Assembly: GCA_030951045.1 (NCBI GenBank)
Contig: JAUZQJ010000036.1
Span: 1-55,113, forward strand
DNA: 55,113 bases
Source: Mariprofundus sp.
GTDB taxonomy: Bacteria > Pseudomonadota > Zetaproteobacteria > Mariprofundales > Mariprofundaceae
Direction of reading: 5' to 3'
The first letter of the stretch is position 1, and the number at the start of each line of letters is the position of its first letter. The position numbers were made by a program, and so were the translations under genes. The notes under the pieces were generated by a model. That model was given only the letters and a program-made list of their open reading frames with translations. It was not told where the DNA came from and made no database searches. Positions 5,716-48,052 of this stretch are shown piece after piece.

Positions 5716-5792
5716 GTGATCTCCATAATCCTGATTGGCAGGAACGTATTTATCCATCTGTATTTGTTCTATACTCTATGAACAGGGGTGGG

Positions 5793-6767: not shown

Positions 6768-6807
6768 ACTGATTGCATCGGTATATATTCATTCAACGCA
6801 GTTCAGT

Positions 6808-8848: not shown

Positions 8849-8992
8849 ATATTCAAATCTGTTTCCTGCTTGTGAAGCTGGTGTTGAGGTCGATATGCAT
8901 GCTTCAATGCAACCCTTTTTGCTAATCTCCGTAAAGTCCGAATGTTTTACGCCTGTGGTTTTTTACGGGCTAATACTTATTGGCGTATATGT

Positions 8993-9001
8993 TGCTATAA
9001 T
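8993..9001 (+). promoter_or_regulatory. Extended -10 promoter of the GGDEF-EAL gene
   Basis: TGCTATAAT contains a consensus TATAAT with the TGn extension. No convincing -35 box lies 16-18 bases upstream, as is usual for extended -10 promoters. It lies about 85 bases before the ATG. Confidence 0.5.
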
Positions 9002-9084
9002 AGATATTCCATGGTTATTTGAGATCGGGCATGCGAAGTAGATAAACGCAGGCAGAGAGAAATGTGGTGCATGGGAGAGGTATA

Positions 9085-14393: not shown

Positions 14394-14445
14394 TTTGACT
14401 CGGTGCCTATGGGCACAACAAACAAACATAATCAGGAGATGAATA

Positions 14446-24030: not shown

Positions 24031-24153
24031 ATGGTGGATGAAAAGTTGTGTTGAAGCGGATTTGCAGAAAAACCTTCTTATGGTCTTGATATTTACGGTG
24101 TTTGTGGCTTTCAATCCTTGCAATGATGACGTGCGCTGTGAGTATTGGAGATG

Positions 24154-32577: not shown

Positions 32578-35028
32578 ATGGTTTTTTATATGTGTGTGAA
32601 AAATAATGTAAAGCGGGTTTTGTCGCTAACAGTCCTGTTTTTGTTTGCCGGGGTATTGATTTCTCCCGCAGCGTATGCTGCTGTAGGTGACCGATTAGAG
32701 GTTTCCGGAGCCAATGCAAGTTTGTATGCTAATCCTGCTGAAACATCCACAGAGCTGGTTCGGGCTGCTATCGGAGAACAAATGGTTGAGATGGATCGCC
32801 GGGGTTCCTGGGTGTTTGTATCGCTGAAGCGTACTGGAGCACAGGGCTGGATGAAGACGTCAGTGACGCGTAAGGCAGTGCGTAAAGTCGTAAAGTCAAA
32901 ATCTTATGTTAAAAAAGCAGTGAAAAATAAGGCGCTATCGAAACCTGCTCCTATTGCTGTGGGTTTGAAGACATTGCCTGAGGCTGCAGCGCCTGTATCT
33001 AATGCACCCTATCTTGCCAGAACGTTGAGCCTGAAGGATATCGGGTTGACTACAGGGATTCTGTTTGAAGGTGCAAATGGTGTGCATGCCCAGACATTTT
33101 ATTTTCCTGCACCACTGGACTCCATGATTTCACATGGCGCCTTCCGTTTGGTGTTCAGAGCATCGCCAAATTTACTGCCGTTGGCGAATGTGCGCGTGTC
33201 TATCAATGATGTGCCTCAAAAACAAATTAACTTGCCTGCTGATGGTTCAATGCATGCGCTGGATGTGCGTCTGCCCTCATCGGCCTTTAATGGTAGTTTG
33301 GTGAAAGTGACTGTGACGTCTATCTTGCCTGTTTCGGATAATCGCTGCTTTGATGGGCGTTTGAGTGATATTTTCCTGCATGTGCTGCCTGAGAGTGCGT
33401 TGTCTATTTCTTATCAGCCTGTCGAGAAGTCTATTCGTGATGCGTGGCGCATGTTACCTCAGGATGTGACTATTAGTCTGTCTGCAGGTCGTTTGAGTAA
33501 GGAGCAATTTGCTTCCACTCTGGCATTGATGGCGTTGCTGGTTGATGCTGACAAGACAGTGAGAATCACAAGGCTGCCTGAAGTTGGTGATATCGTGATT
33601 GCTCCCCGAGCATCGCTTGATCCTGTTGTCGCTCAGGGCGTGGGTGTAAATAAATCTTTGGATGGGGCAAGTAACCTTGTGCTGGCCAAGTTTGCCAATC
33701 GCTCAGCTATAGTGCTGTTGGATCCATATGATATTCAGCCGATGTACCTGCTGGATGATACATGGAAAATGCTGGCGGCTGCGGAACGTTACCGGGTGTT
33801 CAGACCTGACAATATTCACTCACATGTTGAAATGCAGGGTGCTGGTGATGACTCAGGATTCTTTGCTCTGCCGCTGGCGAAACTGGGTATGGATATAAGT
33901 ACCAGAGCGCTAAGCAAAGAAACCAATTGGCACACTGTGATTAATCCATTTGCTTTACCGATGGGTACACAGCCGGAGATGCTGAACCTTAATATCGTAG
34001 CGCCTGTGCGTTGGGACAATGACCCTACCTATGAGCTATATGTATTCCTTAATGATGTCCTGGTGAAAGCGGCGCGTTTGGAAAATCATGGTATGAAGCA
34101 ACATTTCACGGTCAATCTTCCGGAAGAGTATCAGAGGCAGTTTAATGATATCCGTATCGTAGTTCAGCATGATGTTGTGGAAGGTAATTGTGAAGGCGTG
34201 ATGCCGCACGATTATGTTCAAATTACTCCGGATAGTACTTTGGTGGTGAAGAGCAGTGAAATTGATGCACCGAAAGCCTTTTCTGATTTAGCCAAGTATT
34301 TCTTGCCTGGATTTGATACTTATGTGGAAGACTCTTATTTGGATAAACCTGAGCAGATTCTGCATTTGATGTCACGACTATCGGCTGATTTCCCGCTGAT
34401 TATTGATCATACACGACTGCACTTTATGGCAGCTGGTGATGTGCTGGCTCCTGAAGGACCATTTGTAGGAGTGGGGCACTTTACGCTCAGTGATGATATT
34501 GTCGCACCGGTTCGTTTTGATCGCGGTCGTGTGAAAATCACAGCGCCAAATGGCGAGTCGTATTTCGATGTGGATCAACTGTCCAAAATTACGATTGCGC
34601 AAATAGCCCGATCTGCAACGGCATACGGTTTGTGGATCGCACCTTCTGATGCAGAGGATCTGTCAAAAATTGAGCGGCTTGAATTGTCTGAAGATGATGT
34701 CGCCTTTATTGATTCACACGGTGTGGCGAAGACCCTGGACTCATCGGAGCCGACATTGGCTGAAGTCTATTACCCTGATGTTGAAGACTGGTTTGATGTG
34801 CTGGGTAAGTATAAATTCTGGTTGATGGTGCTGTTGTGGTTCTTAATGACAATGGTAGTAGTTTATCTCTATCGTATGTCCAGAATCAATAAACTGGCAC
34901 GTGAAGATGATGATGCTATGTATCAGGCGGATGAAGATCAGATGCAGGGTGGTCATGCTGCACATCTGCATGAAGATCACACGACTCACCCAAGTTCTGA
35001 TTTGGACCACCTTGATGAGAAACGGTAA
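32578..35028 (+). CDS. sfz1: SH3-BcsB fusion: periplasmic cellulose-synthase-like subunit (sfz1-like)
   Basis: The ATG at 32578 follows GGTGGGG and gives 816 residues: a signal anchor (about 13-37), an SH3-type domain (about 40-95, ending GAQGWMKTSVTR), a Lys-rich linker and then a BcsB domain (about 145-740) with paired carbohydrate-binding and flavodoxin-like modules, such as YFPAPLDSMISHGAFRLVF and the segment with DNRCFDGRLSD, followed by a single membrane span (about 747-765) and a cytosolic His/Asp-rich tail. BcsB proteins guide the nascent glucan through the periplasm and anchor the catalytic subunit. Here the partner is the glycosyltransferase starting eight bases downstream. The N-terminal SH3 domain is unusual for BcsB and may bind peptidoglycan. 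The symbol rests on recalled cluster order. Confidence 0.82.
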   Translation: MVFYMCVKNNVKRVLSLTVLFLFAGVLISPAAYAAVGDRLEVSGANASLYANPAETSTELVRAAIGEQMVEMDRRGSWVFVSLKRTGAQGWMKTSVTRKAVRKVVKSKSYVKKAVKNKALSKPAPIAVGLKTLPEAAAPVSNAPYLARTLSLKDIGLTTGILFEGANGVHAQTFYFPAPLDSMISHGAFRLVFRASPNLLPLANVRVSINDVPQKQINLPADGSMHALDVRLPSSAFNGSLVKVTVTSILPVSDNRCFDGRLSDIFLHVLPESALSISYQPVEKSIRDAWRMLPQDVTISLSAGRLSKEQFASTLALMALLVDADKTVRITRLPEVGDIVIAPRASLDPVVAQGVGVNKSLDGASNLVLAKFANRSAIVLLDPYDIQPMYLLDDTWKMLAAAERYRVFRPDNIHSHVEMQGAGDDSGFFALPLAKLGMDISTRALSKETNWHTVINPFALPMGTQPEMLNLNIVAPVRWDNDPTYELYVFLNDVLVKAARLENHGMKQHFTVNLPEEYQRQFNDIRIVVQHDVVEGNCEGVMPHDYVQITPDSTLVVKSSEIDAPKAFSDLAKYFLPGFDTYVEDSYLDKPEQILHLMSRLSADFPLIIDHTRLHFMAAGDVLAPEGPFVGVGHFTLSDDIVAPVRFDRGRVKITAPNGESYFDVDQLSKITIAQIARSATAYGLWIAPSDAEDLSKIERLELSEDDVAFIDSHGVAKTLDSSEPTLAEVYYPDVEDWFDVLGKYKFWLMVLLWFLMTMVVVYLYRMSRINKLAREDDDAMYQADEDQMQGGHAAHLHEDHTTHPSSDLDHLDEKR

Positions 35029-35036
35029 TTACAAGG

Positions 35037-37115
35037 ATGAGTACCCAGGCAGGATTAGTAAGGCCTAAAATTGGCGAGATGCTGTTGAGTGATAGATTGA
35101 TCACTCAACAGCAACTTGATCAGGCACTTGATCAACAGCGCAATCAAGGCGGCCGAATCGGGGATATCATTTTGTCCCATGGCTGGGTGAATCCGGCAGA
35201 GTTTTACACTGTGTTGTCAGATCATTTCCGGCGCGGCCTTATCGGTGATCTGTTGTTGGAAAAAGGACTGATAAGTCAGGATCAGATGGCAGAGCTGCTT
35301 GAAATTCAACAGCAGTGGGGAACCCGTTTTGGTGATATTGTTCTGTCAAAAGGGTGGGTGTCATCTTATCAGATAGGGCAGGTGCTTGCGGAGCATTTTG
35401 GCAAACCCAATGTAAATTTGTTGGAGGAAGCTCCTGACCGTGATGTGATTGATCGTGATAATTTATCTACCTATTCTGAAAACCTGTTTGTACCATGGCG
35501 GCGAGAAAATGGGCTGTTGCTAGTTGCTGTTGTGGATGTGAATCCGGAATTGCTTGCGTTGGTGGGAAACACTGTTGGTGAACCCTTTGATTTTATTATT
35601 ACTTCCAAATTCGATGTGATCTGGTTTTTGCAGAGCATTGGCGATATGTTTTATAGTGAAAGGGCTGTACATGAGTTGGCCAATGTACAACCGGAATATT
35701 CTGCCAGTGAAGTGATTACTCCAAAGCAATTGCGTTTTTTGTTTATCCTGATGAGTTTGAGCATGGTCATTATCGCATTTTGGCCATTAGAGGCGTTCAT
35801 TGTACTGATTTTCGGTATTTCACTGTTTTTGATGGTGAATTTCGGTCTGCGTATGGTGCTTACCTGGGTGGGTGGTGATCCAGAATTTGATAATGTGGTG
35901 ACGGATGAAGAAGTGGCTGCATTGGATGAAAGAACGCTTCCTGTCTATTCGATTTTGTTACCCATGTATCATGAGGCAGCTACGCTCCCAGCTATTGCAC
36001 AGGCATTGCGTTCGATTGATTACCCTTTGTCCAAGCTCGATATCAAACTTATTCTTGAACAAGATGATGACGAGACGATCGATAAAGCAAAAGAGCTGAG
36101 TCTTGAGGGGATTTTTGAAATTATTCGCGTGCCGGATTGCTTGCCCAAGACCAAGCCCAAGGCATGTAACTATGCATTGCACTTTTGTCGAGGTGAATTG
36201 GCAACGATCTATGATGGAGAGGATGCTCCTGAACCGGATCAGCTGAAAAAGGCTGTGATTGCCTTCCGAAAAGGTGCTCGCAACATTGCCGTAATTCAGG
36301 CGCGACTTAATTATTTTAATGCCACAGAAAACTGGTTAACACGTATGTTTACCATGGAATATTCGTTATGGTTTGATTTTTATCTGCCGGCATTAGATGC
36401 TCTGAATATTCCTATTCCTCTCGGTGGTACTTCAAATCACTTTAAGATGGATGTGTTGCGTGAAATGGATGGATGGGATCCTTATAATGTGACCGAGGAC
36501 TGTGACCTCGGCGTGCGTTTGGTGCAGAAGGGATATCATGTTGGTGTATTGAACTCTACCACATTTGAAGAAGCCAATAACTCCATTCCCAATTGGATTC
36601 GGCAGCGCTCGCGCTGGCTAAAGGGATATATGCAGAGTTATCTGGTGCATATGCGTACCCCGATTTCGTTTTATCGTAAACTTGGTCACGTTGGTTTTTG
36701 GGGCTTCCAGTTTTTTATTGGGGGTACTATTTTTAGTGCTCTGCTTATGCCCGTCATGGCACTGTTTTATGCGGTCTGGTTGCTGACGAGTACATCCTAT
36801 TTCGATCCATTATTCCCTCCGTTAGTGCTTTATATTACCTTGTTTAATTTGTCGATTGCCAATGGTTTTCTTATTTATCTGTTCATGTTGAGTGGTTTTA
36901 AACGTAAATATTTTAATTTGATTCCATGGGCAATTACAGTGCCATTTTATTGGATGTTGCAATCATGGGCGGCTTATAAAGGTTTGTGGCAGTTGATTCA
37001 TAATCCATTCTATTGGGAAAAAACGCATCATGGCCTTACTACGTTTGGAGTAGATCATGAAACAGGTGGCGCACCGCATTCAGCACCGCTTGCCAGTAAG
37101 AGTGGTGCGCATTAA
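35037..37115 (+). CDS. sfz2: Cellulose-synthase-like family 2 glycosyltransferase with two tandem MshEN domains (sfz2-like)
   Basis: The 692-residue protein begins with two MshEN units (about 10-120): four repeats of the IG(D/E)xxL...L...L pattern (KIGEMLL, RIGDIIL, LIGDLLL, RFGDIVL), the known c-di-GMP-binding fold. Then come two membrane spans (about 230-273), a GT2 catalytic domain (about 300-540) with LEQDDDE, YDGEDAPEP (metal-binding acidic motif, about 392), TEDCDLG (about 486) and QRSRWLKG (about 522-529, acceptor site), and further spans to about 640. This is the catalytic arrangement of BcsA, but the C-terminal PilZ domain is absent and the N-terminal MshEN pair takes its place as nucleotide sensor. 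The product polymer is unknown. The next gene follows with no gap. Confidence 0.88.
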   Translation: MSTQAGLVRPKIGEMLLSDRLITQQQLDQALDQQRNQGGRIGDIILSHGWVNPAEFYTVLSDHFRRGLIGDLLLEKGLISQDQMAELLEIQQQWGTRFGDIVLSKGWVSSYQIGQVLAEHFGKPNVNLLEEAPDRDVIDRDNLSTYSENLFVPWRRENGLLLVAVVDVNPELLALVGNTVGEPFDFIITSKFDVIWFLQSIGDMFYSERAVHELANVQPEYSASEVITPKQLRFLFILMSLSMVIIAFWPLEAFIVLIFGISLFLMVNFGLRMVLTWVGGDPEFDNVVTDEEVAALDERTLPVYSILLPMYHEAATLPAIAQALRSIDYPLSKLDIKLILEQDDDETIDKAKELSLEGIFEIIRVPDCLPKTKPKACNYALHFCRGELATIYDGEDAPEPDQLKKAVIAFRKGARNIAVIQARLNYFNATENWLTRMFTMEYSLWFDFYLPALDALNIPIPLGGTSNHFKMDVLREMDGWDPYNVTEDCDLGVRLVQKGYHVGVLNSTTFEEANNSIPNWIRQRSRWLKGYMQSYLVHMRTPISFYRKLGHVGFWGFQFFIGGTIFSALLMPVMALFYAVWLLTSTSYFDPLFPPLVLYITLFNLSIANGFLIYLFMLSGFKRKYFNLIPWAITVPFYWMLQSWAAYKGLWQLIHNPFYWEKTHHGLTTFGVDHETGGAPHSAPLASKSGAH

Positions 37116-38648
37116 ATGAACAGAGCTAATACATCTCGGGTGCACACGCAGTCATGGAGCTTTGCACATCATCAGGGTACATGGCTTTTAGTTTTCCTGA
37201 CCATAATGTTGGTTGGATTGACTGTTTGGGTATTGTCAAACGGTTTTTTCCTTGAAAGTGCGATGCAGAGTTGGTCGATTGTCATTTCAGCCTTGGGTTC
37301 AGAGGATGTTCTGCTTGAAAACTTGACCATGTTAACACCGCATCTTCCCTTGTATCTGCTGATTCCATTCTATTTTATACCAAGTCTTGATACTGGGGCA
37401 GCACCATATCTGGTGTCAATCCTTGCGACATCTTTATTGTTATGGATGTGGGCCAGAGATTTAAAAGATGTGGATATTACCCAGACAAGGCTGGCAATCG
37501 TGGCGTTATTGATTGTATTGCATCCTGCGTTTTTGTGGGCTGCAACGTCGGGTGGACATATTTCACTTACCATGATTACGTTTTATCTGTTGTATCGTTC
37601 TGCTCAGCATATTATTACCGTTCATGATATCCATTCATACATTTCGATGGCCGTTGTGTTCGTTGTATTCTTTTTTATTGATGGCACTGCAATTTATATT
37701 TTTGTGGCTTTGATTCCTCTGATTGTATTGATCGCTCCAATTCGCGCTATCATGATATCACCAATGAGTCTGTACCTGATTATCGGTACTCCGTTTGCCT
37801 TCGCAGTGGGTACATGGGCATATATGAACTGGATTTTTGAAGGCAGTTTTTCATTTTTTATTACGAATGCGGATTCCGCCTTTTTAGGTGGAATGCTTTC
37901 AATTGCCCAATACCCATGGTTGCAGGATTATGGCGGTGAATTCTTTCAACCGTTCCTTGTAGCTACGGGCTATTTGTTGATTGCATATCCGGTATCCATT
38001 TATTTGTTACTGGATACTATCGATGATAACCATCGCTTTCGTGCAACATTTGTATTGATGTTGCATCCGCTCATTGCGATCGGAATTGCGACAAGTCAGC
38101 ATTATCTTACGCATCCTTTTGAGATTTTAACCCTGGTGAGTGCGGGACTGATGGCAGAGCTTACATATGTAAAAATGCAGACGCGACGTGAATTTACTTT
38201 GTTGGTCATTTTTCTGATGGTCAGTGTTGCCGGCGGCTGGTGGTTATTTGTTGAAACTGCAAACCCACAAATGACGCGTTGGTACAAGGCACTACAAGGA
38301 GAGAATACCTCTGTCGCGATTGTTGACGATGCCGACTATCAATTGGGAAAATGGTTAAACGTTCACCGAATGCCGACCATTATTTATGAGCGAACCGCTT
38401 ATCGCGTGATAGTAGCTCGAGGTGATGCGGAAGGTCTCTTATTGTCTTATTCTCACGGATTCAAGTCTGCAATGCGACAACGTATTCCTGACGTGGAGCA
38501 GATAGTAGCCTCTGATCCGGGTACATTGGCGGGTAAGCGTGATCGAATAAATATTAGACATCCACATTTATATAGCCATGGCATGAGTGGATATAAGTTG
38601 GTCTATGATAAGCTTGGCTGGCGTGTATATCGGAAAATACATGCATAA
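37116..38648 (+). CDS. sfz3: Polytopic membrane protein of unknown function in the polysaccharide operon (sfz3-like)
   Basis: The 510-residue protein starts directly after the stop of the glycosyltransferase gene. It has about ten to twelve membrane spans (from about 25 to 385), with conserved-looking loops such as LHPAFLWAATSGGH, then a soluble C-terminal part of about 120 residues (from AIVDDADYQLGKWLN to the end). The loop with an acidic start and the C-terminal domain recall GT39/PMT-like membrane glycosyltransferases, but no catalytic motif can be named with confidence. It may help polymer translocation or modify the lipid-linked or nascent polymer. The last codons overlap the next gene by eight bases. 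Confidence 0.7.
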   Translation: MNRANTSRVHTQSWSFAHHQGTWLLVFLTIMLVGLTVWVLSNGFFLESAMQSWSIVISALGSEDVLLENLTMLTPHLPLYLLIPFYFIPSLDTGAAPYLVSILATSLLLWMWARDLKDVDITQTRLAIVALLIVLHPAFLWAATSGGHISLTMITFYLLYRSAQHIITVHDIHSYISMAVVFVVFFFIDGTAIYIFVALIPLIVLIAPIRAIMISPMSLYLIIGTPFAFAVGTWAYMNWIFEGSFSFFITNADSAFLGGMLSIAQYPWLQDYGGEFFQPFLVATGYLLIAYPVSIYLLLDTIDDNHRFRATFVLMLHPLIAIGIATSQHYLTHPFEILTLVSAGLMAELTYVKMQTRREFTLLVIFLMVSVAGGWWLFVETANPQMTRWYKALQGENTSVAIVDDADYQLGKWLNVHRMPTIIYERTAYRVIVARGDAEGLLLSYSHGFKSAMRQRIPDVEQIVASDPGTLAGKRDRINIRHPHLYSHGMSGYKLVYDKLGWRVYRKIHA

Positions 38649-39648
38649 GCGCTTATTATTATGGTTCACCGTATCTGCTGTCGGCCTTTTGGCTGGATGT
38701 GCGTCTGTTGGTGAATTAAAAAATCAATCCATGCTGCGTGGTTTTAATGTGATGCAGCATAAGAATGTCGGCTGGAATGAACCGCAGGCACGGCGTTCAA
38801 TGCAACGAGTGAGTAATGTAGGCAGCAATGCAGTGGTGCTTATTACGTTTCTTGAACAAAATGCCGCATCGTCTCTGCAGGTAAGGCATTCAGATGCTGT
38901 AAGCTTTGATCAACTAACACATGCGATTGAATATGCCCATGACTTTAACCTTGAAGTCATTCTTAAGCCGCAAATATTGGTGGGTAATGCTTGGCCAAGT
39001 GCGATTTCTCATCGCAGTCAGAGAGATTGGAACCAGTGGTTTGAAAGCTATTCAGCGCATATTGTTGAGTATGCCAAGTTTGCATCAAGACATCAGGTTC
39101 AAACGTTTGTGATAGGCACAGAGCTTTCCAAGGCTTCTCGATATGTGGATTGGCCAAGATTGATTCATCGGGTGCGCACAGTGTTCCATGGTAAAATCAC
39201 TTATGCTGCGCATAACGTGAAAGGTGTTCAGGCATTTCCATATTGGAATCAGTTGGATGCTGTATCGCTAACGCTATACCCTTCACTTGGTAGTTCAGGA
39301 CAATATGACGAAATGCAGTCGCTTGTTCACGATGCCGTGAAAAAACTACAACGTTCTGTGCAGAAAATTGATCTTCCGCTTTGGGTGCTGGAGGTTGGGA
39401 TGCCCTCAGCTGCTGGTGCATCTGCCAAGCCCTGGGAGTGGCATAGTTTGAAACATGCTCGTGTGGATTTGAGATTACAGCGTGATGCAATAGATATTTG
39501 GTTGAGGGCACTGGATCAGCCTTGGATCAATGGTGTCTTTATTTGGGCGTGGTACAGTGATGCGTCAATTGGTGGCAGGATGGATGCTGATTACACACCT
39601 CAGAATAAACCTGCCGAACAAGTTATTCGGCGTTATTGGAAATTTTGA
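38641..39648 (+). CDS. sfz4: Lipoprotein with glycoside-hydrolase TIM barrel, GH113-like (sfz4-like)
   Basis: The start at 38641 overlaps the upstream gene and gives a lipoprotein signal with Cys at residue 20 (VGLLAGCAS). The 335-residue protein is a TIM-barrel hydrolase: a first strand GFNVMQHKN, then FVIGTELSKA with Glu161 as the likely acid/base, WVLEVGMP with Glu251 as the likely nucleophile, and FIWAWYSDA with KPAEQVIRRYW at the end. Spacing and end motif fit GH113-like (beta-mannanase-related) enzymes. Anchored in the envelope, it could trim or edit the new polymer, as BcsZ (a cellulase) does in cellulose operons. Substrate is inference; a manC gene nearby would fit mannose in the polymer. 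Confidence 0.75.
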   Translation: MHKRLLLWFTVSAVGLLAGCASVGELKNQSMLRGFNVMQHKNVGWNEPQARRSMQRVSNVGSNAVVLITFLEQNAASSLQVRHSDAVSFDQLTHAIEYAHDFNLEVILKPQILVGNAWPSAISHRSQRDWNQWFESYSAHIVEYAKFASRHQVQTFVIGTELSKASRYVDWPRLIHRVRTVFHGKITYAAHNVKGVQAFPYWNQLDAVSLTLYPSLGSSGQYDEMQSLVHDAVKKLQRSVQKIDLPLWVLEVGMPSAAGASAKPWEWHSLKHARVDLRLQRDAIDIWLRALDQPWINGVFIWAWYSDASIGGRMDADYTPQNKPAEQVIRRYWKF

Positions 39649-39650
39649 TC

Positions 39651-40595
39651 ATGCGGATTAAAGGAGTGGATTTGATTCGACTATGGCAACAGATAATTAG
39701 ATGTATCATATTAATTGCAGGTCTATCTCTGGCACCTTCAGCATATGCTGGGGTGGGCATGCTTGCGGGCGGTGAATCGCTATATAATTCAGATCTCAGT
39801 TTTGCTGGTGGCAATGCCATTTGGGATGCAAGTCGCAATAAAATTCTTTCTGTCTGTAAACGTAGAAATGCGAATTTGGTTCAGGGTTATGAGTATGGAT
39901 ATTCTTATTTTTATACAGTCTATGCCAATGTGACCTTTGCTTACCGTAAGTGTGGTCAAATATTTCGCTCCATGCGTATTAATCGGGTTACAGGCAAGAT
40001 CAGACCTGCAACGACAAAGTTCGGTGGCCAGGCGTCCGGTATAGGAGATATTCAAATCGGTGTGCGTGCACGATTGAATCATGCCAATACAGCAGCATGG
40101 GAAGGGGCATTGATCATTCCCGGTGGTTATGATGGTAATAGTCCAGCGACTCTGGGGCGTGGGGCTTTAGGTTTGTCGTTAGGACTGAAGTTTGCATCTG
40201 ATGCTGGTTTAAGTAAGCGGAGTTCATGGGCGTGGAAAATGGGTACTAAGCTGACCTATTTCTTTGCCAGTAAGGGGAACTCTATAACCTCCTTTGGCCA
40301 GTTGAGTTATGCCTTTACAGAAACAAACTTTGAGCAGACAGGTAACTTTATGTCACTACGCATCAATAATAGTTTTGCTATGGCGAATAATGGCCTGCAG
40401 AAAACACTTTTTTATAATCAGATTCCATCAAGTTTAACCAATAGTGATTCAACCGCATTGTCGCTGGGGTATAGCCATGCTTTTGTAAATTCAGGATGGT
40501 CAACAAACGTTCGAGTAGGAAAAGCATTCTTCGGCCGCAGTTCACCTGTTGATTACACTGCAGGCTGGGGCTTTAGCTACCGTTGGATGGACTAG
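39651..40595 (+). CDS. sfz5: Outer-membrane beta-barrel protein, putative export channel (sfz5-like)
   Basis: The 314-residue frame begins at ATG 39651; a TTG at 39672 is a strong alternative, since AAGGAG lies five bases before it and the protein then has a compact signal peptide ending AYA-GVG. The mature part is rich in Gly, Ser and aromatic residues with alternating strands (for example GIGDIQIGVRARLNH and GWGFSYRWMD at the end), as in 12- to 16-strand barrels. Two Cys (CKRR and RKCGQ) may form a loop disulfide. No family is recognised. In the operon it is the only candidate for the outer-membrane pore, the role BcsC has in cellulose export. Confidence 0.65.
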   Translation: MRIKGVDLIRLWQQIIRCIILIAGLSLAPSAYAGVGMLAGGESLYNSDLSFAGGNAIWDASRNKILSVCKRRNANLVQGYEYGYSYFYTVYANVTFAYRKCGQIFRSMRINRVTGKIRPATTKFGGQASGIGDIQIGVRARLNHANTAAWEGALIIPGGYDGNSPATLGRGALGLSLGLKFASDAGLSKRSSWAWKMGTKLTYFFASKGNSITSFGQLSYAFTETNFEQTGNFMSLRINNSFAMANNGLQKTLFYNQIPSSLTNSDSTALSLGYSHAFVNSGWSTNVRVGKAFFGRSSPVDYTAGWGFSYRWMD

Positions 40596-40596
40596 A

Positions 40597-43500
40597 ATGA
40601 AAGCAAAGAAATCTCTAAAACTGTGTCTGCTGCCACTGCTAACTATAGCGGTGGCCGTTGGTGTGGTGCATGCGAAAGAGGGAGATGTTTATAGCTTGCA
40701 GGCTGACACGAGTTTGCGCAAGGGCCCTGATAGCTTTTATGTACCAACCGGTAGTGCTGCAAAAGGAGCCCGGGCTATTGAGTTGAATAGTGCTGGTGCA
40801 TGGAAAAAAGTGCGAATATTTTCCAGTGGTGATGTGGGTTGGGTCAATAGTGGTTCTCTTTCTGGTGAGTCTGTGAATGTTGGCTCGTCGAAGGTTCTGA
40901 ATGATAATATAGGGACTAAAAAATCAACGCTCCCAGCTGTGGTCGTGAATGATGATCTGCAACTGTCACCGAAGCCTGAATCTGATCTATCGCCACAATT
41001 TGAAAACGGAACACCTGCTCTGTCGGAATCTACCGATATAGCTGTGGCAGATCAGAAGCAAGTGCTTCCATCAAAGCCTGTTGTGCAAGAGATGACTCCT
41101 TCAAAGGATCATGTGGATGGTGGGCGTTTAACGCCATTGTTTGAGGATGGTGCTGTATCTCAGGAAATGGCTCCGGAACGTGTAGCTGAGCAGCCTGTTG
41201 CAAGCAATGAAGAGATGCCTCCGGTAATAGAATCGGATCAAAAAGAGTTGCCTGTATCGGTTCAACCACAGGTCGCTAAAAGCGAGCCTATGCTTGACCC
41301 TGATAACACTGGTTTGCAACAGTTTCCAGTTCAGTTGGTGAGTAGTGCTTCAACCGAAGTGGATGCTCCCATTGCGGAAAATGCAATAAAAATGTCTGCA
41401 AAAGAGGAGTCTGTTGCAACGAGTACTCAGACTGCCGACGCGATGGCTAGTGTGCCTTTATCTCCGGCCGCAGACCAATCGTTGAGTATTCCTGAAAATG
41501 TAGTGTCGGACACTGCAACGTTTGAAGTAGAACCCATCCAAAAAAGTGTTCCTGCATCAGATGCGATAGATAGTGTTGAAGCGAAACCCGTACCTGCATT
41601 GAATAATGTTGTTGAAACGATTGCCAACACAGAGACAAATGAACCTCTAGGAGCATCACAAATGGTGATGCAAACAACAGTCATCAGGGTTGGTCCCAGT
41701 GCCTTGTCAGAGGTGTTGGGATGGGCTGGATCAGGTGCCCGGGTTCAGACCATTCAGCAGGATGGCAAATGGATGAAGGTGCGTTTGCAGGATAGCAGTC
41801 GTATTGGTTGGGTTGAGGCCGCTTCTTTGGATGGTAGCAATGTGGTTGCTACTTCTGTAGTGATGACGAATAAGCCAACTAATGAGCCAGCCAACGAACC
41901 TGTTAACGAACCAGTTAATAAGCCAATCAACGAACCAGTACCTATCAACGAACCAGTACCAGTCAACGAACCAGTACCAGTCAACGAACCGGTTAATGAG
42001 CCGGAACAATTAGTGCAGAAGGCGACCGTTGAGCCGCTTACAACTACAGATGTGAATCGCTCCAGCACGGCTAAAGCCGTTGATACTGCTGCCGTTACTC
42101 CTGACAGCATGGTGGAGAGTCAACGCGACGTACAAGCTATGCCGCAGCAGACAAGCCCTAATGTAGAAGCCACCCAGACAGAAGTGGTGCCTGCCGAGAG
42201 TAAAAAAGCGACCTATACATTCAATCGTACAGCAGCCCTTAGAGATGGGCCTGCAACAACATTTGATTCAGTTTCATGGGCTGGTGCGGGGGCGCAGGCA
42301 ACAGAACTTGAACGCAACGGTGATTGGGTACGCCTTCAATTGCAGGTGAGTAAAAGGATTGGTTGGGTTTATGCTCAATCGCTGAATCTCGTTGCGGCGG
42401 GTGCAGGAGTGGCAAGTGCTGCAGCAGCAGCGAGCACCCCATCAGCCAGTTTAACTGTACTTCCTGTGCGCATGACGCAAGCCAGTGATCATAAGCCGTC
42501 AATTGAAGCTCCAGTTCGTGAGAATATCGAAGCTGATCCGGTTATTGCAAAGGTTGAGCCGAAAGCCGTTCAGGTAACTGATATAAAAAAAACATCCAGC
42601 GCGATCAGTAAGCTCTATAGCTTTAATGAAAAAGCTAATTTACGAGCAGGACCGGCTGTAAGGTATGATGTGGTTTCTTGGGCCGGTGAAGGTGTATATG
42701 CGTTAGAGCAGGATCGCAATGGTGACTGGTTACGAGTGCAGTTGCAGGCGAATAAACGTATAGGCTGGGTAAACAAGCGATTGTTGACCCCGGTAAAAGC
42801 CGGTGCAACCCCGCAAGGGGCGATCAATGCGAATGCTGATGTGGCACCAGCTGTGATGATGGTGAATGCTGATAAGGCTGTTAAGTTACCAGAGGAATCC
42901 ATTGATGATTCTGATCATAAACTACATTTCTTTAAGCAGACGAGTACTTTAAGAGCAGGCCCCGGCAAAGAATTTGAAAAGGTTGCATGGGGCGGCAGGA
43001 ATGAGTCAGCCGAGCAAATCGGCCACAGTGGTGATTGGAAACAAGTACGCATGACCATTAGTGGAAAAACAGGCTGGGTGTTTAACGAGTACCTGGTGCG
43101 CGCAATGCATCCTGGCCATATCATGGGTGTGACACGCTCAATGCTATCACCCGCTGTAAAAAGTATGGGGAAAAACGGCCAAATGTATCTGGTCGTACGT
43201 ACGGTACCATTGCATGCCGCGGCAGGGGATTTGGCTGATTTAATAGGCTCTGTTCAAAAAGGTGATCTGGTTGCTTGGCTGGAAGAGCGCAATGGTTGGG
43301 TGAGAGTGAATCCACAGATCGATGGTGGTAAAATCGGTTGGATTGAAGCGAATTTATTGAGAAAGCAAGAGCAGTTTAACGTTGAACATACGCAGGTATT
43401 AATCGGCAAAGACAATATGCTGTCGTATAAAGATAGAATTTCAAAAGGTGAAGTGTTTAATTTTTCATATGCGGCTCTGGAGGAAGCTTTATACAAGATT

Positions 43501-45141
43501 CCTGTTGAGGACATTCACATCCGTATTAGCAAGGATAATCTGGAAGCGATCTTCCTGAAGCGACAGTATGATCTTTCTCCATTTGAGATGCGCTTAACCA
43601 CGGGGCGACATCGCTTGTCAGGCACAATAAAGGTGCTGGGTAGTTCGACGCGTATATTTAAGAAAAAATCCTTACTCATTAAATTGGATAAAGAGAGTGC
43701 GCGCTGGTATGGCCATCGCCGCATGGCATTGCGTTCTATGGCATCTGATAAAGCCTTGATGCGAGAATGGATGACCTGGAAAATGATGGCTGCTCTTGGC
43801 ATGAAAGTGCCGGAAGTACATTTTACGCGCGTAACCTTTAATAAGGGTGAGAAAACTGGTCTGTACCTATCCATTGAGTGGATGGGAAAAGAGTTTCTTG
43901 AAGGCAATAATCTGGATGCACGCGGAGAGTTTTATCAACCAAACGATGGAGCCCACTGTGGTGATCTGTATTCACCCGAAAGTGTAGAGTTGTGTTTTGA
44001 TAAGATTACGCCATTTGGAGATTTCAGTAATCTCAAATCAATGGCAAAATCTGTGAATTCGGCGACCAATGAAAATATAGATACCGTGTTGGCAAAATAT
44101 TTTGAAGATGAATCCATCATTAACTGGATTGCTGTGAATGCACTGGTGACCAATGGTGATACATATAATAAAAACTACTGGCTTTATTATCACCCCACAA
44201 AAGAGAAATGGACCGTGGTACCGTGGGATTATAATCTGACATTCGGGCGCACATATGATCAATATGCAACGCGTAAATTTAGAATTTTTAATGATAACTT
44301 CCAATATTATTATCCACCTGATGTAGGAGCTGGTAACCCGATCAAAGATAAAGTGTTGCGTAATCCTGCACTTAGAAAACGTTTGGAAGATAAAATCAAA
44401 CATTTGACGGGTATGGAACCGAATGGATCAGAACAAACGTTTGGCTGGTTCTCTCCTACTGTGATGCAGGCGCGTATTGGAAATCTCGCCGCGGTGGTAG
44501 GTAAAGAGGTGTATAAGGATTCATTCCTCTCTTATGGTGAAGCTGATTTTACGAAAACGTATGAGTCACTGATGCACTATGTTACTGCACACGACCATTT
44601 TCTGAAGACGAAGCTGTTTGGAGATTTCCCATGGGCTCCTGAACCACCAAACCAGCCATATGCATTCATGCATTTGCCTGAAACATTGCTTGGTGAGGGA
44701 AACATCGATGCCGGCTCTGAATCACTACATATGGTGGATCATAGCTGGGGATATTTTGTGGCGCATTTGAATTTGAATGAACCATTGAAGACAAAAGCAG
44801 CGTTTGAAGTAAAAATTGAAGGTGGAGTAACACCTAAATATCTGCCGACTGTTGTGCAATCTGCGAGCCGATGTATTGAACGTTCATGGTTGTTGAAAAC
44901 GAAAACGGACAAGGTCTCTGTTACTGGTGACCTTATGGTTGAATATACGCAGGAAAATTCACGGCGTTCTGAAGTGCCTCCAAGGGTCCATGAAGAACTG
45001 CTGGAATTGTGGATGCTTGATGGAAATCGTTGGAAACCCATTCAAACTGAAGTCAATGAATACTCGAATACGTTGACTGCTAAAAATGTGCATGTGGAAT
45101 CAGGCCATCATTATCGATTTGTTGCGTGTAGCCCGTTCTAA
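40597..45141 (+). CDS. sfz6: Giant SH3-repeat/CotH-domain surface protein (sfz6-like)
   Basis: The ATG at 40597 begins one base after the upstream stop. The 1,514-residue protein has a signal peptide (cleavage near HAK, residue 26) and six SH3-type domains (about 30-90, 350-410, 537-600, 671-730, 772-835 and 860-925), each with an (A/L)R.GP segment and a final GW(V/I) pair, the sixth lacking the GP turn. A spacer with an Asn-Glu-Pro repeat lies at about 427-469. A CotH domain (about 940-1290) follows, with LRSMASDKALMREWMTWKM, INWIAVNAL (1175) and VPWDYNLTFG (1208), then a further C-terminal domain to the end. CotH proteins have an atypical kinase fold and can phosphorylate spore-coat proteins. 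The usual DxD-like site reads DYN here. Likely periplasmic or surface bound through SH3 contacts. Confidence 0.85.
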   Translation: MKAKKSLKLCLLPLLTIAVAVGVVHAKEGDVYSLQADTSLRKGPDSFYVPTGSAAKGARAIELNSAGAWKKVRIFSSGDVGWVNSGSLSGESVNVGSSKVLNDNIGTKKSTLPAVVVNDDLQLSPKPESDLSPQFENGTPALSESTDIAVADQKQVLPSKPVVQEMTPSKDHVDGGRLTPLFEDGAVSQEMAPERVAEQPVASNEEMPPVIESDQKELPVSVQPQVAKSEPMLDPDNTGLQQFPVQLVSSASTEVDAPIAENAIKMSAKEESVATSTQTADAMASVPLSPAADQSLSIPENVVSDTATFEVEPIQKSVPASDAIDSVEAKPVPALNNVVETIANTETNEPLGASQMVMQTTVIRVGPSALSEVLGWAGSGARVQTIQQDGKWMKVRLQDSSRIGWVEAASLDGSNVVATSVVMTNKPTNEPANEPVNEPVNKPINEPVPINEPVPVNEPVPVNEPVNEPEQLVQKATVEPLTTTDVNRSSTAKAVDTAAVTPDSMVESQRDVQAMPQQTSPNVEATQTEVVPAESKKATYTFNRTAALRDGPATTFDSVSWAGAGAQATELERNGDWVRLQLQVSKRIGWVYAQSLNLVAAGAGVASAAAAASTPSASLTVLPVRMTQASDHKPSIEAPVRENIEADPVIAKVEPKAVQVTDIKKTSSAISKLYSFNEKANLRAGPAVRYDVVSWAGEGVYALEQDRNGDWLRVQLQANKRIGWVNKRLLTPVKAGATPQGAINANADVAPAVMMVNADKAVKLPEESIDDSDHKLHFFKQTSTLRAGPGKEFEKVAWGGRNESAEQIGHSGDWKQVRMTISGKTGWVFNEYLVRAMHPGHIMGVTRSMLSPAVKSMGKNGQMYLVVRTVPLHAAAGDLADLIGSVQKGDLVAWLEERNGWVRVNPQIDGGKIGWIEANLLRKQEQFNVEHTQVLIGKDNMLSYKDRISKGEVFNFSYAALEEALYKIPVEDIHIRISKDNLEAIFLKRQYDLSPFEMRLTTGRHRLSGTIKVLGSSTRIFKKKSLLIKLDKESARWYGHRRMALRSMASDKALMREWMTWKMMAALGMKVPEVHFTRVTFNKGEKTGLYLSIEWMGKEFLEGNNLDARGEFYQPNDGAHCGDLYSPESVELCFDKITPFGDFSNLKSMAKSVNSATNENIDTVLAKYFEDESIINWIAVNALVTNGDTYNKNYWLYYHPTKEKWTVVPWDYNLTFGRTYDQYATRKFRIFNDNFQYYYPPDVGAGNPIKDKVLRNPALRKRLEDKIKHLTGMEPNGSEQTFGWFSPTVMQARIGNLAAVVGKEVYKDSFLSYGEADFTKTYESLMHYVTAHDHFLKTKLFGDFPWAPEPPNQPYAFMHLPETLLGEGNIDAGSESLHMVDHSWGYFVAHLNLNEPLKTKAAFEVKIEGGVTPKYLPTVVQSASRCIERSWLLKTKTDKVSVTGDLMVEYTQENSRRSEVPPRVHEELLELWMLDGNRWKPIQTEVNEYSNTLTAKNVHVESGHHYRFVACSPF
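41875..42003 (+). repeat. In-frame tandem repeat encoding Asn-Glu-Pro units
   Basis: A 12-base unit (Asn-Glu/Lys-Pro-Xaa) is repeated about six times and then passes to an 18-base unit (Asn-Glu-Pro-Val-Pro-Val/Ile) repeated three to four times almost identically. It keeps the frame of the CotH protein and makes an extended Pro-rich spacer. Length variation between strains is likely. Confidence 0.9.
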
Positions 45142-45215: not shown

Positions 45216-46478
45216 ATGAAAATAAAACAGCTCACACAAGGAATATGGGACGACATGAAGAGTGAAGAGGGTAAGGCGACGTTTCGTTTTGCTGTTCGCC
45301 TTTTCCTGATCCTGCTTGCCTATTATCTTATGAAGCCCGTTCGAGAAGAATTGATTCTTGATGGCGGCAGCGCTGCTATTCGAAGTTATGCGCTGGCGGG
45401 TCAGGCTGCACTGTTATTGTTATTGGTACCCTTTTATAGTCACATTATTAAACACCTGCATGGCGATAAGTTGTTTCTCATTGTGACCCTGTTTTTGGCA
45501 GGCAATATAGGCGTGTTTTATTTGCTTGGTTCTGCGGGCATGGATATAGGCGTGGCCTTCTTTGTCTGGTTGGGTATTTTTTCGGTGGTTCAGATCTCCC
45601 AGTTCTGGACCATGGTCAGCGATTATCACTGTGTAGATAAGGGTAAGAGACTAACCTCATATATCGCCATCGGTGGTTCACTTGGTGCAATGATTGGTGC
45701 GATGATCGCTAAATCACTCTATATTGAGTTAGGTGCCTATAATCTGATGTTGTTGGCTGTGTTCATGCTTATCGTGGCCGTATTTATTCCAGGTGCTAAG
45801 GAAGGCTTGCGTAAAGACCATCATGATGAAGATGCGGATGATGAGTCCATCAAACATCTGCTGGGTGGATTGAAACGGGTGATGGATGTGCCTTACCTAC
45901 GCTGGATTGCTGCATCGGTAGTGTTACTCAACCTGATTAATTCAACCGGCGAATTTGTGCTGGCCAGTTTTGTAACAGCAGAGATGAGCGGGCATGAAAT
46001 TGGAGCTTTTTACTCAAGCTTTTATCTCTATGTAAATATTGCCACGCTGGTACTGCAGGCCTTTGTAGTGCGGCCATTGTATCAGGTGATTGGTGTTGGC
46101 GGAGCTTTGATCAGTTTAGCAGCCATTAATTTGATAATGTATATGTCGGTGCTTGCATTCCCTGTACTGGCTTGGTTTGCCATTGTGAAAATGGCCGATA
46201 ACAGTATTGATTATTCTGTTGCGAATACCACCAAGCAGATCCTGTTTTTGCCACTGGATCGTTTTACACGCTATGAAGGTATGTTGGCGATCAATACGTT
46301 TTTCACCCGCTTCGGTGATTTGATTCAGGGCGGTGTTATTTTTGTTGTGATTTCAATGTTGGCCATGTCACCAATGACATTGGTATGGACGAATATCGTA
46401 TTATGTCTATTATGGTTGTATGTAACTGTGAACGTTAGCCGACGGTTTAAGAAACAAACAGCATCCACGAATATGTGA
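45216..46478 (+). CDS. Nucleotide (NTP/NDP) exchange transporter-like membrane protein
   Basis: The 420-residue protein has ten to twelve spans and the pattern of bacterial TLC/Npt-type ATP/ADP transporter relatives: LAYYLMKPVREELIL near the start, QFWTMVSDYHCVDKGKRL in the middle and GGSLGAMIGAMIA after it, followed by an acidic loop (DHHDEDADDES) and, in the second half, NTTKQILFLPLDRFTRYEG, which is typical of the family. True ATP/ADP translocases belong to intracellular parasites; free-living members have unknown substrates. It follows the CotH gene by 74 bases in the same direction. A role in moving a nucleotide or other precursor for the CotH kinase or the polymer is speculation. Confidence 0.7.
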   Translation: MKIKQLTQGIWDDMKSEEGKATFRFAVRLFLILLAYYLMKPVREELILDGGSAAIRSYALAGQAALLLLLVPFYSHIIKHLHGDKLFLIVTLFLAGNIGVFYLLGSAGMDIGVAFFVWLGIFSVVQISQFWTMVSDYHCVDKGKRLTSYIAIGGSLGAMIGAMIAKSLYIELGAYNLMLLAVFMLIVAVFIPGAKEGLRKDHHDEDADDESIKHLLGGLKRVMDVPYLRWIAASVVLLNLINSTGEFVLASFVTAEMSGHEIGAFYSSFYLYVNIATLVLQAFVVRPLYQVIGVGGALISLAAINLIMYMSVLAFPVLAWFAIVKMADNSIDYSVANTTKQILFLPLDRFTRYEGMLAINTFFTRFGDLIQGGVIFVVISMLAMSPMTLVWTNIVLCLLWLYVTVNVSRRFKKQTASTNM

Positions 46479-46573: not shown

Positions 46574-47983
46574 ATGAGTGATAGATTAAAAGCAGTGGTA
46601 TTGGCAGGCGGTTCCGGAAGTCGTCTGTGGCCGTTGTCGCGTCAACAGCTTCCTAAGCAGTTTCTCAATTTAAATGGTCATGAAAGTATGTTGGGCGCCA
46701 CCATTAACCGCTTAAGTCCATTGATCGAAAGAGATAATGTATGGGTTGTTACGGGTGAGAAACACGCGACTGGTGAGGCTTTTTCTGAGCTGGATGGGCT
46801 GAATCAGATGCTGGAACCCTGCGGCCGCAATACAGCACCTGCTGTCGCGCTCAGTGCAGCACTGATGCAAGATTTAAACGACGATGATCCCATTATGGTG
46901 GTATTGCCTGCCGATCATATTATATCCAAGAAAGATGCGTTCCAGGCTTGTCTGCAACAAGCAGTAGAAGCAGCTAAAGCAGGGCGGCTGGTAACATTCG
47001 GTATTTTCCCTAATCAGCCGGAAACCGGTTTCGGTTATGTCCAGACTGAAGAAAGTGTAGATGGGATTCACCGCGTACTTCGTTTTGTTGAAAAGCCGAA
47101 TAAAGAAAAAGCTCAAAAAATGCTGGATGATGGTAACTATTACTGGAATTCCGGTATGTTTGTCTGGAGAGCATCAGTTATTCTGGCTGAAGTCGAAAAA
47201 TATTTACCGGATGTGTGGGCTGTCTTGCAAGATATGCGCAAGCGTTGGAATAGCGGGGAAGTCTGGCAGGAGGTGGTCAGAACCACGTTTGATCAGATGC
47301 CGGATATCTCTATTGATTATGGTGTGATGGAGCGATCCGAGATTGTATCTCTGGTTTCTGCTGATATTGGCTGGTCTGATGTGGGCAGTTGGGATGCAGT
47401 GCATGAGATTGCGACTAATGATACTGATGGCAATGAAATCAGTGGTAATGTGTTGGCCATTGATTGTAAAAACTCACTATTCAGAAGTGAGTCGCGCTTG
47501 ATTGCAGCCGTTGGTTTGGACGACATGATCGTGGTGGAAACTCCTGATGCGATTTTATTGGCTAAAGCCGGCGAATCTCAGCGCGTGCGTGAGCTGGTAG
47601 ATTCCCTAAAACTGGGTGGTGAGAAATATCATATTGAGCATGTGACCGTACGTCGTCCTTGGGGTAGTTATACCGTGCTGGGTGAAGCTGGTGATGGTTA
47701 TCAACTCAAGCGTATTACTGTCTTGCCAGGTGGAAAACTTAGTTTGCAGGCGCATCAGCATCGCTCAGAGCATTGGGTGGTTGTAGCTGGCACTGCAACG
47801 GTGACATGTGGAGATCTGGTCAAAGTGGTTGCCAGAAATGGCAGTGCATATATTCCTATCGGTGAAGTTCACCGCTTGGAAAACCGGGGTAAAGTGCCTG
47901 TGCAGCTCATTGAAGTGCAAGTTGGTGATTATCTTGAAGAAGATGATATTGAACGCTTTGAAGATGTGTATGGTAGAAGCTAG
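46574..47983 (+). CDS. manC: Mannose-1-phosphate guanylyltransferase / mannose-6-phosphate isomerase
   Basis: The 469-residue type II bifunctional enzyme (ManC/AlgA/XanB) has the nucleotidyltransferase motif LAGGSGSRLWPLSR with the activator Lys (LPKQFL), FVEKPNKEKA for sugar binding, and a C-terminal cupin (about 355-460, YQLKRITVLPGGKLSLQAHQHRSEHW) that carries the isomerase activity with metal-binding Gln/His residues. It makes GDP-mannose from fructose-6-phosphate with a phosphomannomutase. It starts about 95 bases after the transporter gene and is followed by a strong terminator, so it may be the last gene of the polysaccharide operon. This suggests mannose or a mannose-derived sugar in the polymer, but GDP-mannose also serves LPS. 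Confidence 0.93.
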   Translation: MSDRLKAVVLAGGSGSRLWPLSRQQLPKQFLNLNGHESMLGATINRLSPLIERDNVWVVTGEKHATGEAFSELDGLNQMLEPCGRNTAPAVALSAALMQDLNDDDPIMVVLPADHIISKKDAFQACLQQAVEAAKAGRLVTFGIFPNQPETGFGYVQTEESVDGIHRVLRFVEKPNKEKAQKMLDDGNYYWNSGMFVWRASVILAEVEKYLPDVWAVLQDMRKRWNSGEVWQEVVRTTFDQMPDISIDYGVMERSEIVSLVSADIGWSDVGSWDAVHEIATNDTDGNEISGNVLAIDCKNSLFRSESRLIAAVGLDDMIVVETPDAILLAKAGESQRVRELVDSLKLGGEKYHIEHVTVRRPWGSYTVLGEAGDGYQLKRITVLPGGKLSLQAHQHRSEHWVVVAGTATVTCGDLVKVVARNGSAYIPIGEVHRLENRGKVPVQLIEVQVGDYLEEDDIERFEDVYGRS

Positions 47984-48014
47984 CTAGCGTTGTTCCGCTA
48001 AGATCGACTAATTG

Positions 48015-48052
48015 AAAAGCCCTTGAGCTAACCAGCTCAAGGGCTTTTTTTT
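48015..48052 (+). terminator. Strong rho-independent terminator after manC
   Basis: A perfect 15-bp stem (AAAAGCCCTTGAGCT / AGCTCAAGGGCTTTT) with an AACC loop is followed by more T, about 30 bases after the manC stop. It closes the whole operon. Confidence 0.92.

Follow-up and report, generated by a model that had tools for sequence, protein, structure and literature searches.

A complete sfz1–sfz6 cluster on a Mariprofundus contig and its proposed function as a stalk polysaccharide operon

Introduction

Iron stalks have been considered as a sign that iron-oxidising organisms were present, and surveys in the literature use BLAST searches for sfz homologues to judge stalk-forming potential. 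The locus described here raises the question of whether six closely packed genes of a Mariprofundus species constitute an sfz cluster and, if so, what their products might make. The window (the whole 55,113-nucleotide stretch of contig JAUZQJ010000036.1, assembly GCA_030951045.1) carries six open reading frames (ORFs), all on the forward strand and with ATG starts chosen, between positions 32578 and 45141. Judged from its sequence, this region almost certainly represents sfz in a Mariprofundus closely related to EBB-1. The cluster is already known, and the window holds a further complete copy.

Identity of the six-gene cluster

The cluster sfz1–sfz6 was defined in stalk-forming Zetaproteobacteria, with the same genes, order and domains as those of the window (PMC8250860). 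A sequence-only reading of this DNA had proposed that identity, and the gene lengths fit it. Including stop codons, sfz1 to sfz6 measure 2451, 2079, 1533, 1008, 945 and 4545 nucleotides, all inside the ranges given in Table 2 of that paper (1067–2576, 2051–2084, 1499–1535, 971–1037, 929–983 and 3311–7352). The Pfam matches agree as well, namely BcsB, MshEN plus a family-2 glycosyltransferase (GT2) domain, a hydrolase, and SH3 plus CotH, with the hydrolase belonging to glycoside hydrolase family 113 (GH113) and not GH10. From sfz1 to sfz6 the genes are separated by a gap of 8, a gap of 0, an overlap of 8, and gaps of 2 and 1 bases, which exactly bears out the earlier figure of no more than eight bases for any overlap or gap. 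Other Mariprofundus genomes show the same gene order, again with open frames, so the arrangement reflects more than chance.

Protein comparison with Mariprofundus genomes, suggested by the sequence-only reading as a check, reveals the same order in EBB-1 (L005) and M. ferrooxydans PV-1 (L010), both of which are stalk formers in Table 1 of PMC8250860. Identities to EBB-1 for sfz1–sfz6 are 96, 98, 96, 96, 99 and 80%. The best segments in PV-1 are 58, 73, 64, 59, 60 and 52% identical, that of Sfz6 covering 65% of the query, and identities to ET2 are 57–74% for sfz1–sfz4, 45% for sfz5 and 44% for sfz6. These three are the stalk formers of the paper that were compared by name. The window thereby reaches the published level of at least 50–70% identity to stalk formers, with Sfz1 against PV-1 just below the paper's 60. 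Because the PV-1 genome (G049) has a single sfz3 match, L010 should be the published PV-1 locus. EBB-1 is the nearest relative among the loci compared, and its DNA is 94.6% identical to the window over 21,986 aligned positions, close to the customary boundary between species.

Of 78 genomes of the class, 18 have sfz3, comprising 17 of the 23 in the window's genus and one of 55 outside it (G002). Three more genomes of the genus (G056, G065 and G066) carry other sfz genes on short contigs, and by these searches 20/23 hold some part of the cluster.

Proposed working of the cluster

We propose that the cluster functions as a stalk polysaccharide operon, and assign a probability of roughly 0.6 to this working as a whole. 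That the cluster has a role in stalks we consider likely. Cyclic di-GMP (c-di-GMP) would control Sfz2, the GT2 synthase in the inner membrane, by acting on its MshEN-type end; Sfz2 and the BcsB-like Sfz1 would together make and push out a polysaccharide. ManC would supply GDP-mannose, and the polymer would be a beta-1,4-mannan or glucomannan. Glycosyltransferases of the GT-C fold use lipid-linked sugars, and the predicted GT-C protein Sfz3 would draw on a lipid carrier to attach side sugars in the periplasm. The hydrolase BcsZ trims cellulose, and the mannanase-like lipoprotein Sfz4 would likewise trim or release chains. Sfz5 would form the outer-membrane channel, while the SH3 array of exported Sfz6 would bind or bundle fibres and its CotH domain may phosphorylate matrix components. 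Outside the cytoplasm, ATP may come from the TLC-like carrier encoded after sfz6. The twisted iron stalk would have the product of the operon as its organic matrix.

If this proposal is true, the stalk polymer gains a testable chemistry (beta-mannan) and a switch (c-di-GMP on Sfz2), and the Sfz6 SH3 array with its WDYN motif becomes a candidate marker separating stalk-type from dread-type operons. A bolder version can be formulated in which the stalk is built on a beta-1,4-mannan-type fibre, its growth gated by c-di-GMP through a doubled MshEN pair, and in which an SH3-array CotH kinase, supplied with ATP by the TLC carrier, bundles and phosphorylates this fibre outside the cytoplasm. The phosphates would then seed or steer iron oxide, and the SH3 expansion of one operon clade would separate twisted stalks from dreads. 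We regard this full version as quite improbable.

Sfz6 and the two operon clades

The window's Sfz6 carries six SH3_3 stretches and a CotH domain in Pfam (2.8e-50; PDB CotH 5jd9, 4.6e-13). In a tree of Sfz2 with 47 rows, some of the deeper ones long-branched and of unsure placement, 13 Mariprofundus or zetaproteobacterial rows including the window form clade A (support 100/100), and seven rows form its sister, clade B (100/99). All 13 full-length clade A Sfz6 proteins are 1,454–2,270 residues long, have 6–13 SH3 units and carry WDYN in the CotH domain; 12 of them were placed by the tree and one (G059) by identity, and a partial copy (L090; one SH3 unit, 286 residues) was left out. The five full-length Sfz6 proteins of tree-placed clade B operons are 678–843 residues long, have WDYD and lack SH3 units, in agreement with Pfam. 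Likewise, a clade B-like copy (L091, 675 residues) and a fragment (L179, from G066) have WDYD and no SH3 match. Among other Sfz6 proteins there is no SH3 unit in L015, L016 and L045, one in L021 and three in G002, and all have WDYD or WDFD. Because clade A is one lineage, the SH3 array and WDYN represent one-time changes rather than independent correlations.

Two clade B members, G046 and G048, presumably correspond to CP-5 and CP-8, dread formers of Table 1 in PMC8250860, and G050 presumably to M. micogutta ET2. In the latter, the TLC/manC site is occupied by a clade A operon, and a second operon, of clade B and with neither TLC nor manC beside it, lies elsewhere; G058 (OFTM123) likewise holds both kinds. 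No mention of a second ET2 operon was found in the Methods, Results and Discussion of PMC8250860, where the stalk trait of ET2 is ambiguous (thin filaments are reported, and stalks were seen with most cells lacking them). Among clade A rows, a phenotype can be named for PV-1, EBB-1 and ET2 only. Additional copies occur on short contigs, with two clade A-like sfz3 copies in G060 (L089 and L090) and a further clade B-like sfz copy in G058 (L091); each case might be a strain mixture or a true duplication.

The CotH domain bears directly on whether Sfz6 is an enzyme. The catalytic residues of Bacillus subtilis CotH are D228 and D251 (PMC7821199). By our own mapping, based on spacing and the 5jd9 alignment, the two corresponding Asp residues are kept in 23/23 aligned copies. 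Sfz6 therefore presents a CotH profile and two putative catalytic Asp residues, with Asn at a nearby third acidic position in clade A. It is at this position that the clades divide in the same alignment, with WDYN in 13/13 clade A copies versus WDYD or WDFD in 10/10 others, to which the clade B-like copy and the fragment can be added. This split, together with an SH3 array that suits a binder, favours a clade A Sfz6 that serves as a scaffold and whose kinase domain is degenerate, whereas the retained Asp pair argues against it. We give the scaffold slightly less than even odds, and an active kinase appears rather doubtful from sequence features.

Homologous clusters beyond Zetaproteobacteria

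The order sfz1–sfz6 plus TLC also occurs in two metagenome-assembled genomes (MAGs) of Gammaproteobacteria (L015 and L016) and in one of Desulfurivibrionaceae (L045). In L015 and L016 about 1 kb lies between sfz4 and sfz5, which in L015 holds an opposite-strand gene of the phosphodiesterase/sulfatase superfamily (14335–15306, −). Partial clusters cut by contig ends are found in L021 (Gammaproteobacteria MAG; sfz2 to TLC) and L027 (Desulfobulbaceae MAG; sfz1 to sfz3). Identities to the window are 30–33% for Sfz1, 58–63% for Sfz2, 36–40% for Sfz3, 35–41% for Sfz4, 23–36% for Sfz5 and 33–38% for parts of Sfz6. Mis-binning was considered and is less likely for L015/L016 and L045/L027, given that the L016 genome (G411) is among the relatives of the L015 genome and that the genome we infer for L027 (G439) is among those of the L045 genome. 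Matches to sfz3 occur in 2/27 and 2/28 genomes searched around L015 and L045, centres included, and thus the distribution is patchy and most relatives lack the genes.

More distant relatives carry fewer of the genes. An Sfz2 match at 1e-80 (at most two candidates scored per genome) is present in 46 non-Zetaproteobacterial genomes, from which 15 loci were fetched. One of these (L163) also matches sfz1, sfz3 and sfz4, one (L165) has a weak sfz5 match, and none of the 15 matches sfz6 or TLC. Xanthomonas loci match sfz2, sfz3 and sfz4 only.

The sequence-only reading had named an outcome that would count against it, in which the best syntenic hits lie in loci of non-stalked bacteria and the published Sfz proteins go unmatched. 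As a whole, this outcome did not occur. Half of it holds, in that MAGs of Gammaproteobacteria and Desulfobulbales and the xag locus of Xanthomonas, bacteria not known for stalks, hold homologous loci, and for this reason homologues alone do not prove stalks, which calls for care in surveys that use them in this way. The same clusters, whether complete, partial or of the xag kind, are what would be expected if the operon made an exopolysaccharide for attachment or biofilms in general (of the Xag or NfrB kind) and served adhesion while the stalk depends on other genes. The clade B operons in the genomes taken as CP-5 and CP-8 fit this alternative as well. However, the conserved cluster is linked to stalk formers in the published set (PMC8250860), and SH3 arrays of six or more units are found only in clade A. 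We therefore judge a general attachment operon unlikely.

Sfz4, manC and the polymer

Sfz4 matches the Pfam GH113 profile (2.9e-45) and, in the PDB, the beta-1,4-mannanase 5ylh (8.9e-29). All seven PDB sequences that match it, at E values up to 1, are named beta-1,4-mannanase, and the match to the Pfam cellulase (GH5) profile is weak and below cut-off. Thus, by profile, Sfz4 is a member of GH113, the beta-1,4-mannanase family, and not of GH10, the family to which it is assigned in PMC8250860. Residues E161 and E251, a putative catalytic pair, are invariant in 13/13 aligned sequences, and Ala replaces the counterpart of E251 in 5yli as compared with 5ylh.

Family GH113 is probably mannan-specific, with one large clade lacking detected activity, and endo-beta-1,4-mannanase activity has been shown for the GH113 enzymes of X. 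campestris ATCC 33913 and X. citri (PMC9032380). In 10/10 Xanthomonas and Pseudoxanthomonas genomes (positions compared by hand) the single GH113 gene is next to the one for the Sfz2 homologue, within the xag locus, and the assayed enzymes are therefore probably counterparts of Sfz4. The xag locus directs a biofilm polysaccharide that is uncharacterised, and the dispersal of biofilms has been seen to involve, by implication, a beta-1,4-mannanase (PMC3528676). The specificity of a synthase-associated hydrolase has been used elsewhere to infer the polymer (PMC7710045). Because Sfz4 is a GH113 protein and manC, for GDP-mannose, follows the operon, the polymer might be of the beta-mannan type, for which we consider the chances even. 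With the exception of second copies, manC adjoins the cluster in those Mariprofundus loci that are long enough to show it.

A search of the open-access literature returned no paper that mentions both Mariprofundus and a mannan. Previous suggestions are that mannose in glycoproteins or glycolipids is needed during stalk formation (PMC3179512) and that the neighbouring phosphomannose isomerase is linked to exopolysaccharides (PMC8250860); mannan is unnamed in the available text of both.

The BcsB-like Sfz1 also raises the prospect that a BcsA/BcsB-like pair makes cellulose or some other beta-glucan, as does the proximity of Sfz2 to cellulose synthases among solved GT2 proteins. Cellulose synthases have PilZ in the GT2 subunit, a cellulase, and tetratricopeptide repeats (TPR) in BcsC. 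Pfam finds neither of the first two in the window operon. With a hydrolase whose PDB matches are all mannanases and no PilZ match in Sfz2, a cellulose operon is set aside and a beta-glucan product is very improbable.

Sfz2 as an MshEN-type synthase

In Pfam, Sfz2 matches MshEN (1.9e-7, residues 122–201) and GT2 (1.1e-21), with no match to PilZ or to an ATPase domain, and its GT2 part aligns with the TED and QxxRW motifs. Two MshEN-type binding-motif pairs, at residues 11–63 and 68–120, precede the Pfam stretch. This doubling to four half-motifs is seen in 19/19 aligned Zetaproteobacterial sequences, including the window (residues 11–120). Two half-motifs are present in L015, L016, two Desulfobulbales rows and the Pseudoxanthomonas rows. 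At the same cut-off as for the Zetaproteobacterial rows, four Xanthomonas rows have one half-motif, and L021 (cut by a contig end) and L047 have none. Each half-motif of the window agrees with 10/11 relaxed positions at the published spacing (two 24-residue motifs with a 5-residue spacer), deviating at position 10 in the first, position 1 in the third and the last position in the second and fourth. A best single score of 10 was obtained in 23 of 2,000 shuffles of the window protein's first 200 residues, and four units scoring this high stand in register in the window.

MshEN has been established as a receptor domain for c-di-GMP (PMC5013675), and NfrB is a GT-MshEN synthase that binds c-di-GMP (PMC8669469). 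We read the published 'secretion-like' end of Sfz2 as an MshEN domain of the c-di-GMP-receptor type, and control of Sfz2 of the c-di-GMP type is probable. A translocation part resembling a type II secretion ATPase, a reading discussed and called questionable in PMC8250860, shares its InterPro entry with this N terminus, but with MshEN alone matched, a receptor domain by precedent, and the ATPase domain absent from the Pfam scan, it is set aside as scarcely credible. Elsewhere on the contig, a PAS-GGDEF-EAL protein (9064–10731, +) is a possible c-di-GMP enzyme.

Sfz1, Sfz3 and Sfz5

Sfz1 matches BcsB (6.6e-20) and has an SH3-like domain according to a hidden Markov model built for this analysis (domain E value 6.1e-7), a feature without mention in the Methods, Results and Discussion of PMC8250860. 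The SH3-like N terminus is present in 21/24 sequences scanned, drawn from both clades, Gammaproteobacteria and Desulfurivibrionaceae; the misses are L014 (cut short), L027 and L037.

Neither Sfz3 nor Sfz5 has a Pfam match, including to TPR for Sfz5. The AlphaFold2 (AF2) model of Sfz3 (pLDDT 83.2, pTM 0.84) has as its best Foldseek matches oligosaccharyltransferase and DPY19 (top five: E 5e-4 to 1e-3, probability 1.00, TMq 0.44–0.50), and a GT-C fold is predicted with modest TM-scores. For Sfz5, an AF2 model of moderate confidence (pLDDT 72.7, pTM 0.69) predicts a 12-strand outer-membrane barrel, which supports the beta-barrel proposed by the sequence-only reading. Its Foldseek matches include FapF 5o67 (7.4e-11) and the COG4313 channel 4rl8 (8.8e-10). 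In an unrelated genome (L165 in G125, ~7015–9600), a weak Sfz5-like match (23%, E 1e-12) lies directly before an MshEN-GT2-family gene, which fits Sfz5 as a synthase partner.

The TLC-like carrier

The protein encoded after sfz6 matches Pfam TLC (1e-7, residues 309–411) and a PDB ADP,ATP carrier (9j3n, 2.1e-5, residues 321–416), with MFS_1 below cut-off. Its gene follows sfz6 in Mariprofundus, gammaproteobacterial and Desulfurivibrionaceae loci but is missing next to L074 and L076, which are second copies. We looked for pairing of CotH with such carriers across 398 genomes of the phylum, using an E cut-off of 1e-10. CotH was found in 10 non-Zetaproteobacterial genomes, one of which (G396) also has TLC-like genes, none of them adjacent, and a general pairing is rejected. 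Literature on CotH with nucleotide carriers yielded nothing among the matches listed. That the carrier feeds ATP to a kinase outside the cytoplasm is an improbable guess.

Points that weigh against the proposed working

Several observations weigh against the stalk polysaccharide proposal. The link between sfz and stalks is a correlation, with no mutant reported in the literature searched. Sfz4 is 28–32% identical to the aligned Xanthomonadaceae proteins, and the ten genomes examined did not include the two strains with assayed GH113 enzymes. Clusters L015 and L045 have no manC nearby (L016 and L021 end too soon), and manC may serve other glycans. The nearest solved GT2 proteins to Sfz2 by sequence are cellulose synthases, a weak match (E 8e-5). 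Furthermore, the last Gln in the second half of each MshEN pair is His in the sequences passing that cut-off except L009, L074 and L037, which falls outside the relaxed published motif, and therefore c-di-GMP binding is not assured. The best Foldseek matches of Sfz5 are an amyloid exporter and the COG4313 channel rather than a polysaccharide exporter. Finally, adjacency of CotH and TLC-like genes is confined to sfz loci among the 398 genomes.

Layout and neighbouring genes

The features of the locus are listed in Table 1. The stem after manC is the longest terminator-like stem of the region, and the transcription unit may therefore extend to the end of manC and comprise eight genes; 22 terminator-like sites were found where 15.6 are expected.

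Table 1. Coordinates of the sfz locus and adjoining features in the window
Feature	Position	Strand	Features and basis
sfz1, BcsB-like synthase subunit	32578..35028	+	hydrophobic signal-like N-terminus, SH3-like residues 47-95, hydrophobic C-terminal segment
sfz2, MshEN-type motifs + family-2 glycosyltransferase (TED, QxxRW)	35037..37115	+	Pfam, alignment, motif count
sfz3, multi-pass membrane protein, predicted GT-C glycosyltransferase	37116..38648	+	AF2 model, Foldseek
sfz4, GH113 endo-beta-1,4-mannanase-like, lipobox-like LAGC	38641..39648	+	Pfam, PDB match; lipobox by eye
sfz5, signal-like N-terminal helix + predicted 12-strand beta-barrel	39651..40595	+	AF2, Foldseek
sfz6, signal-like N-terminus, six SH3 repeats, CotH kinase domain	40597..45141	+	Pfam, PDB match, SH3 count
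sfz6 SH3 array, 6 units within residues 38-921	40708..43359	+	SH3 count
sfz6 CotH kinase domain, carries WDYN	43627..44598	+	alignment of CotH copies
TLC/ATP-ADP-antiporter-like membrane protein	45216..46478	+	Pfam, PDB match
manC, mannose-1-phosphate guanylyltransferase / mannose-6-phosphate isomerase	46574..47983	+	Pfam NTP_transferase 1.5e-49, MannoseP_isomer 8.1e-46
Intrinsic-terminator-like stem, 16 pairs, after manC	48014..48049	+	consensus match only

Immediately upstream of sfz1 is a putative lipoprotein gene (31471–32301, +) with matches in EBB-1, OFTM252, PV-1 and CG4_9 and no Pfam match. Further upstream are a CHASE2-Ser/Thr protein kinase recognised by Pfam (28613–31030, −) and, beside it, a gene (27810–28616, −) labelled PP2C-like from its sequence; this pair is also upstream of sfz in EBB-1, ET2, KV, OFTM123, OFTM252 and CG1_02. 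An N-acetylmuramoyl-L-alanine amidase and an ABC exporter (24145–27166, +) lie 5–8 kb upstream of sfz1 and are not adjacent to it; these are two of the five gene kinds in an sfz-linked cassette (PMC8250860). A multicopper oxidase is encoded at 3246–5384 (−).

Comparison with known systems

The domain corrections, the two-clade marker, the second operon of ET2 and the non-Zetaproteobacterial clusters were not found in the available text of the literature searched, which also includes PMC12607638, PMC10734525, PMC10734462 and PMC9973265. Four polysaccharide systems share parts of the operon. The Bcs cellulose synthase has in common with sfz a BcsB-like subunit, a GT2 synthase and its own hydrolase, but in sfz the synthase lacks a PilZ match, the hydrolase is of the mannanase family and Sfz5 lacks a TPR match. 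The xag locus of Xanthomonas (PMC4643136, PMC3528676) shares an MshEN-GT2 gene (48–56% identical), an sfz3-like gene and a GH113 gene in a row. In contrast, the fetched xag loci have no sfz5, sfz6 or TLC match, an sfz1 match only in Pseudoxanthomonas (28%), and at most two half-motifs versus four in Zetaproteobacterial Sfz2. In NfrBA of E. coli, MshEN lies at the C terminus and UDP-N-acetylmannosamine (UDP-ManNAc) is the presumed donor; the operon is nfrB-nfrA-ybcH, and GH113, SH3 and CotH genes are unnamed in the available text of the source (PMC8669469). The BcsA/B-GH113 locus of C. difficile shares a GT2, a BcsB-like and a GH113 gene, and its authors read the product as a mannose-type (ManNAc-rich) polymer (PMC7710045). 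However, that organism is Gram-positive, and the genes named for its locus include a ManNAc precursor gene and a deacetylase rather than manC, sfz3, sfz5 or sfz6.

The closest likeness is to the published sfz cluster itself (PMC8250860), which has the same genes, order, lengths and domains, followed by the antiporter and phosphomannose isomerase genes. Relative to that description, the domain readings are revised to GH113 instead of GH10 for Sfz4, MshEN for the end of Sfz2, a predicted GT-C fold for Sfz3, a predicted 12-strand barrel for Sfz5 and an SH3-like domain in Sfz1.

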